A DNA stretch of 64,000 bases. Source: Bernardetia sp. ABR2-2B (lineage in GTDB: Bacteria > Bacteroidota > Bacteroidia > Cytophagales > Bernardetiaceae). The stretch spans positions 2,841,293 to 2,905,292 of the forward strand of contig NZ_CP147020.1 of assembly GCF_037126435.1 (NCBI RefSeq), in the 5' to 3' direction. The translations under genes were made by a program, and so were the position numbers. The notes beneath the pieces were generated by a model. It saw only the letters and a list, made by a program, of their open reading frames with translations. It made no database searches and was not told where the DNA came from. Positions 41,711 to 42,146 of the stretch are shown piece after piece (the stretch's first letter is position 1; the number at the start of each line of letters is the position of its first letter).

Positions 41711-41742
41711 AAAAAACCTTATCTAATATAATTAGATAAGGC
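41711..41742 (-). terminator. Rho-independent terminator of the 51-aa peptide gene
   Basis: On the minus strand CCTTATCTAAT pairs perfectly with ATTAGATAAGG around a 3-base loop, followed by six T residues. It lies between the 51-aa gene and lysA, so the peptide gene has its own transcript end. Confidence 0.9.
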
Positions 41743-41824
41743 TTAATAACTAGTTAAGAGCATATTTTAAATTTTAGAAAAGTATAAATTAAATAGTATT
41801 TTCATATTTGAAAATTCATACTAT

Positions 41825-41980
41825 CTACCAAGGAAGTTTTGGAGGCTCTACATCTCTTCCATTTCCACCAGTAGTCATTTCTAGTCTTTCTTCTAACTCT
41901 TCAGTAAGAAGTTCGTTTTCTAATTCTGCAAAAAGCTCGTTTTGAGCGTCTATTTGATTTGAGTTATTTTGAGTTTTCAT
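41825..41980 (-). CDS. 51-aa peptide with double-glycine motif, possible secreted or modified peptide precursor
   Basis: An ATG (complement of 41978-41980) opens a 51-codon frame ending at TAG. The product has a hydrophilic start (MKTQNNSNQID), an acidic amphipathic helix (ELFAELENELLTEELEERL) and then EMTTGG followed by a 12-residue tail NGRDVEPPKLPW. A Glu/Leu helix before Gly-Gly is the layout of double-glycine leader peptides cut by C39-type transporter peptidases, and the tail would be the product. The tail lacks Cys; possible reactive sites are Asn, Asp, Lys and Trp. A consensus promoter lies 136 bases upstream and a perfect terminator 83 bases downstream. No maturation genes adjoin, so the role is open. 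Confidence 0.62.
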   Translation of the reverse strand: MKTQNNSNQIDAQNELFAELENELLTEELEERLEMTTGGNGRDVEPPKLPW

Positions 41981-42115
41981 AATGTAAAATTTTTGAAGTG
42001 TAAAAGTGTATTTTAAATGAATAAATAAAAAACAAGTATCTTGAAATAGTTTAATAGAAATACAAAACTAAGAGTGATAAAGAAGTCTTGTATAATTCCT
42101 TGTTTTAGTATACTT

Positions 42116-42146
42116 CAAATATAGGGGTTAGGGTTGCAGAATCAAA
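42116..42146 (-). promoter_or_regulatory. Consensus Bacteroidota promoter of the 51-aa peptide gene
   Basis: On the minus strand TTTG (complement of 42143-42146) is followed by 19 bases and TATATTTG (complement of 42116-42123). This is an exact match to TTTG-N19-TAnnTTTG. The predicted transcript begins near 42110 and has a leader of about 130 bases. Confidence 0.78.

Follow-up and report, generated by a model that had tools for sequence, protein, structure and literature searches.

We report that Bernardetia sp. ABR2-2B encodes a small leader-bearing peptide, probably a precursor, in a stand-alone gene, and that the leader is probably removed by a site-2-like protease encoded in trans, which would release a short PPKLP tail. 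The gene was found in the window (the whole stretch of 64,000 nucleotides that was analysed), where it is flanked by its own promoter and terminator. The features are as follows (with the basis of each in brackets):

41825..41980, minus strand: precursor peptide gene, 51 aa, ATG start (ORF reading, orthologues and codon pattern)
42143..42146, minus strand: -33 promoter element TTTG (pattern match in the window; kept in 7/7 species)
42116..42123, minus strand: -7 promoter element TATATTTG, spacer 19 (TATNTTTG with identical spacer in 7/7)
41981..42110, minus strand: 5' untranslated region, ~130 nt (start site deduced from the promoter)
41714..41744, minus strand: intrinsic terminator with stem, TAT loop and T tail (stem in the window; kept in 7/7)
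41870..41938, minus strand: leader helix, residues 15-37, ELFAELENELLTEELEERLEMTT (dN/dS 0.08; predicted helix)
41870-41902, minus strand: leader core EELEERLEMTT, residues 27-37 (no amino-acid change in 7 species)
41846..41869, minus strand: variable linker, residues 38-45 (GGNGRDVE), containing a non-conserved GG (dN/dS 1.29; alignment)
41828..41845, minus strand: conserved tail PPKLPW, residues 46-51 (alignment; PPKLP without amino-acid change)

The promoter TTTG-N19-TATATTTG occurs once in the window against 0.03 matches expected from shuffles. A looser pattern, TTTG-N17-21-TANNTTTG, yields 7 window matches against 4.8 expected, so that a loose match alone is little proof; we hold the promoter to be real because TTTG-N19-TATNTTTG is conserved in all seven species, always with a spacer of 19. 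The terminator recurs in the same seven species, where 11-14 stem pairs, counting G-T, are followed by a T-rich tail, and the L006 version shows two-sided pair changes (judged by eye). The frame, promoter and terminator described in an earlier, sequence-only reading are thereby borne out: the ORF and both signals are kept in all seven Bernardetia genomes searched. In the 7-species alignment the early 5' untranslated region (window 42060-42115, minus strand, AAAACAAGGAATTATACAA) is seemingly more conserved than its later part; at gathering scores, Rfam gave no RNA family match in the window. The peptide itself has no match in NCBIfam or Pfam, and no second copy was found in its own genome at E <= 10. 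It is acidic and has no hydrophobic stretch; AlphaFold2, run on the single sequence (mean pLDDT 74.5), predicts one helix at residues 5-36, followed by a tail of low confidence that lacks secondary structure.

Orthologues were detected at E <= 3e-11 in 7/7 Bernardetia genomes among the 39 genomes searched (the own genome and 38 relatives); the peptide was not found in the other 32, and eight further matches in this search, all at E >= 0.27, were set aside as chance hits. Over the seven species dN/dS amounts to 0.30 for the whole peptide and 0.08 for codons 15-37, is zero for EELEERLEMTT and PPKLP, and reaches 1.29 in the linker (alignment columns 38-45, equal to residues 38-44 of the window peptide). 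Pairwise differences in codons 15-37 number 39, 39 and 139 at codon positions 1, 2 and 3, a bias that is not seen in the two shifted frames. The low dN/dS and the third-position bias thus indicate that the frame is coding, with leader and tail both conserved and the linker free to change. Both checks that had been proposed on this point, conservation of the frame in relatives and a coding-like ratio of synonymous to nonsynonymous changes, turned out in favour of the gene. After PPKLP the C-termini of the relatives are W, Y, G, M, WPIG or WPLG. Downstream of the peptide gene, with the terminator in between, 6/7 genomes have a gene of the Orn/DAP/Arg decarboxylase family (by Pfam), which we take to be lysA; in L007 this place is occupied by a convergent histidine-kinase gene.

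The leader is also found outside the genus. A profile of the seven Bernardetia peptides alone was run on 395 genomes of the class, of which 58 matched at E <= 1. Precursor-like short ORFs were obtained for the own genome (G000), G376 (E 1.3e-4), G229 (2.2e-4) and G112 (0.0087), the latter three before any protease was known. All other matched genomes were dropped as chance, a Lachnospiraceae match (L048) lying inside a 1056-aa frame was dropped as well, and no viral relatives of the peptide were confirmed. In G112 three tandem Cys-rich short ORFs adjoin a radical SAM/SPASM protein, and in G229 one leader-bearing short ORF is accompanied by a radical SAM protein, a P450 and a squalene-cyclase-like protein; two cluster precursors tested have no NCBIfam or Pfam match. 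A 26-position leader profile was then run on two orders. In that of G112, 13 out of 348 genomes matched at E <= 0.05; nine were kept, while G586, G554, G483 and G512 were dropped as chance. In that of G229, 6 out of 346 genomes matched; three were kept, while G1019, G861 and G1002 were dropped as chance. The surroundings of two dropped genomes, G586 and G1019, contain no HExxH protease of the daptide-like kind. On the 395 class genomes the leader profile matched 34, with E < 1e-9 in four (G000, G112, G229 and G376), E-values being inflated for the training members of the profile; the other 30, at E >= 0.04, were dropped as chance.

Altogether, the leader core ELExR(L/F/Y)E(M/T) was found outside the genus in 43 ORFs (39 distinct) at 13 loci, mostly in tandem arrays with diverse, often Cys-containing tails. 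The search pattern demanded the L, E, R and E of LExRxE; that these residues are constant outside the genus is therefore no finding. One locus, L165 (G643:C20), holds eleven leader-bearing short ORFs, several of them near-duplicates and one with a masked stretch. In the parts of the literature that were consulted, no description of this leader was found.

A membrane HExxH (M50/site-2-like) protein of about 350-430 aa is present in 12/12 leader loci with readable surroundings (L049, L050 and L164-L173, from 8 genera, out of the 13 leader loci), counting L050 and L173, which are near-duplicates with 99% identical proteases. The proteases of L049 and L172 were read in six frames (the ATG-based ORF list missed both), and those of L166 and L173 were assigned by the HExxH motif and their likeness to L164 and L050. 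Five cluster proteases were tested and match NF041824 (daptide intramembrane metalloprotease, E 1e-21 to 1e-34) as well as NF058609 (YydH/LiaK), in both cases below the curated cut-offs. In the PDB, the profile of the family finds a site-2 protease structure, 3b4r (E 3.5e-5). The N-terminal ~90 residues have PqqD (3g2b) as best PDB match, over the full length but weak, at E 0.18, and no PqqD match in Pfam; given this weak match, it is by analogy that the domain is likely a RiPP recognition element (RRE).

Running a protease profile built from 8 cluster proteases (including that of G112) on 16 genomes revealed a full-length homologue in 6/7 Bernardetia genomes (E 1e-63 to 1e-69), in the own genome at the following position:

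G000:C1:3808717-3810021: protease gene, 434 aa, about 925 kb (0.93 Mb) from the peptide gene on the same chromosome

The HExGH and DGYW motifs are intact in all six Bernardetia proteases, which are 20-25% identical to the cluster versions. Three of the six were tested and have daptide_HExxH (NF041824) as best NCBIfam match, at E 1e-23 to 2e-29, below its cut-off. In G005 (460 contigs, 92% complete) the search found no full-length protease and a 41-residue match at E 0.001 only. Four other Bernardetiaceae genomes gave no full-length protease (short weak matches in G008 and G009, none in G007 and G010), and the peptide is absent there too. Within the 15-20 kb read around the Bernardetia protease no leader-bearing short ORF is present, and no radical SAM or toroid gene was recognised beside it. 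A divergent ParA-like ATPase gene and a gene for a ~150-aa protein stand beside the protease in 6/6 genomes (L197:8409-9035; same place in L198-L202). The suggestion that the leader-peptide gene stands alone, with its processing machinery not adjacent and probably acting in trans, is supported, the candidate being this unlinked M50-like HExxH protease.

Peptide and protease are connected by their distribution. Protease matches at E <= 1e-60 (a cut-off set after the table was seen, with at most four candidates scored per genome) occur in 4/395 class genomes, namely G000, G112, G229 and G376, the same four that bear the leader. Fisher's test for this association gives p = 1e-9, or 1e-7 without G112 (which contributed to the protease profile), with kinship ignored; that the leader and protease searches covered the same 395 genomes was judged from equal numbers and handles. 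The strong protease match of G376 lies on another contig than the leader and adjoins a toroid protein. Weaker protease matches without leader are seen in G038 (E 1.8e-17, partial) and G059 (3.9e-9), bringing the leader to 4/6 genomes at E <= 1e-8. The distant relative in G038 (L206, G038:C2) adjoins a nitroreductase-family protein, presumably SagB-like, and the two perhaps form another peptide system. With genes 0.93 Mb apart and a protease this distant from the cluster versions, the pairing in Bernardetia rests on co-occurrence.

Based on these data we propose the following mechanism, which we regard as likely. The window gene would encode a stand-alone ribosomal precursor peptide, whose N-terminal helix with core EELEERLEM would act as leader. 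An HExxH protease of site-2/M50 type, embedded in the membrane, would recognise it. This protease, encoded elsewhere in the same chromosome and carrying a possible RiPP recognition element as its N-terminal domain, would cut off the leader, probably close to where EMTT meets the linker. It may also export the product, a role that has been proposed for EpeP. What is left would be a short peptide with PPKLP(W) at its end. A single copy in the own genome, a neighbour that is usually the same across the genus and the conservation of the tail point to a signal or another core/housekeeping peptide rather than a mobile bacteriocin.

In the sequence-only reading the peptide was compared to double-glycine precursors that are cut and exported by a C39 peptidase ABC transporter, here possibly in trans. 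The TTGG and the 12-residue tail are present in the window species as described, and C39 peptidase matches occur in 7/7 Bernardetia genomes, but GG is kept in one of the seven species only: EMTT is followed by GG, SA, DG, SA, DS, DG and NV, respectively, with no common GG/GA/GS cleavage site. Instead of a constant helix-GG boundary with a varying tail, the alignment displays a constant helix-EMTT boundary, a varying linker and a constant PPKLP tail. A C39-type ABC transporter does exist in the own genome (at L085, by Pfam; the C39 match at L086 is a C39-VKOR-thioredoxin protein), but the GG peptides nearby have another leader. Near C39 genes, 13 short ORFs with a MKSLKKKFGKFAVS-type leader (12 ending in GG, one in GA) were found in 7/9 loci scanned, from the own genome, G001, G002, G003 and G005; those of G004 and G006 hold none. 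Since GG occurs in one species only and the MKSLKKKFGKFAVS...GG leader is unlike that of the window peptide, a double-glycine mechanism for the latter is unsupported and, in our opinion, very unlikely. The MKSLKKKFGKFAVS...GG peptides beside the C39-ABC transporter and C39-VKOR-thioredoxin protein are probably the real GG export system of the genus; L085/L086 (G000:C1:2286000-2320000), L087, L088, L089, L092 and L094 contain genuine double-glycine peptides, several of which are Cys-rich. Hardly credible is a role as leader peptide or attenuator of the decarboxylase gene, as its downstream position beyond the terminator in most species might suggest: L007 retains the peptide promoter and terminator though the histidine-kinase gene follows, the conserved tail has one Lys, and the amino-acid sequence is kept along the whole helix.

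Potential tailoring enzymes are found at several leader loci. By Pfam, radical SAM proteins are present in L049, L050, L170 and L172, together with a P450 in L049. Proteins of one family, 630-720 aa long and squalene-cyclase-like (toroid) in their C-terminal half, repeatedly accompany leader and protease:

L049:7932-9932, L167:7473-9431, L169:9278-11446, L171:9939-11825, L172:9783-11828, L203:1817-3799: toroid family proteins

The presence of radical SAM, P450 or toroid proteins at other leader loci speaks for a full RiPP, in which an enzyme encoded elsewhere would modify the tail, perhaps at the invariant PPKLP, before the same protease sets it free. We nevertheless judge this somewhat unlikely. 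The radical SAM protein of G112 has no homologue in 11 Bernardetiaceae genomes (a search without positive control), and the SPASM family gave, above the cut-off, a frame of 340-390 aa in 5/7 Bernardetia, which other genera (G008 and G009) have as well, so with the G112 query and the SPASM family no genus-specific radical SAM maturase was found. Toroid proteins are absent from 7/7 Bernardetia (G376 and G504 serving as positive controls), and G112 is without them as well. Because the radical SAM, SPASM and toroid searches found no tailoring enzyme, the peptide may fall outside the strict definition of a RiPP; with toroid and G112-type radical SAM proteins absent and the SPASM frame not specific to the genus, the Bernardetia system may be a cut-down version of leader peptide and protease. 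Possibly, though we put this forward tentatively, it is a minimal two-gene system of an unmodified precursor and an unlinked site-2-type protease, in which intramembrane cleavage alone would make and release a genus-wide PPKLP signal. The same co-occurrence data, the conservation of both ends and the predicted helix would also suit a small regulatory protein that binds the protease (as adaptor or inhibitor) and stays uncut, but this is improbable, since elsewhere several ORFs in an array share this leader while their tails differ, which is the layout of precursors.

The proposed release of the tail by a site-2-like protease has parallels in known systems. According to sections of the daptide paper (PMC10036551), daptides have an RRE fused to an intramembrane site-2 protease, MpaP, which removes a leader with motif ELExMEAP. 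Like daptides (MpaA/MpaP), the present system combines short precursors and an acidic ELE-type leader motif (here ELExRLEM) with an N-terminally extended HExxH membrane protease. Unlike daptides, the Bernardetia peptides lack an invariant C-terminal Thr, as the varied endings after PPKLP show, their gene is not linked to that of the protease, and no daptide C-terminal enzyme (MpaBCDM) was recognised by eye beside the protease. The daptide BGCs surveyed in that paper come from Actinomycetota and Bacillota, with a single one from Pseudomonadota. For want of the C-terminal Thr we do not file the system as a daptide, even though the leader/protease step is daptide-like. Epipeptides (YydF/EpeX, YydG, YydH/EpeP) likewise pair a small peptide with a membrane M50-type protease, YydH/EpeP, which in parts of the corresponding papers is thought to cleave and export it (PMC7026026, PMC10885120); theirs are cluster-encoded with a radical SAM epimerase, whereas none is found beside the Bernardetia peptide or protease gene. 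In TMcin (TmcA/TmcP) the leader is removed by TmcP, a site-2-clan intramembrane protease, as proposed here for Bernardetia, but its precursor, as portrayed in part of the source (PMC13252029), has a transmembrane helix and cluster-encoded partners, unlike the acidic window peptide. The double-glycine/C39 peptides of Bernardetia itself are small leader peptides too, yet the window peptide has a different leader and no conserved GG.

Mining of RiPPs in Bacteroidales stresses GG motifs and C39 exporters, at least in parts of the published account (PMC10352776). Split systems of an unlinked precursor and protease are easily overlooked by cluster-based mining, and the leader signature described here flags a group of peptide clusters within the class. 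Should the two-gene system prove true, its relative would be the module of leader and protease that is found elsewhere in the class together with tailoring enzymes of the radical SAM, P450 and cyclase-like kinds. For Bernardetia, the analysis provides a testable precursor-enzyme pair of which neither gene betrays the other by its position.
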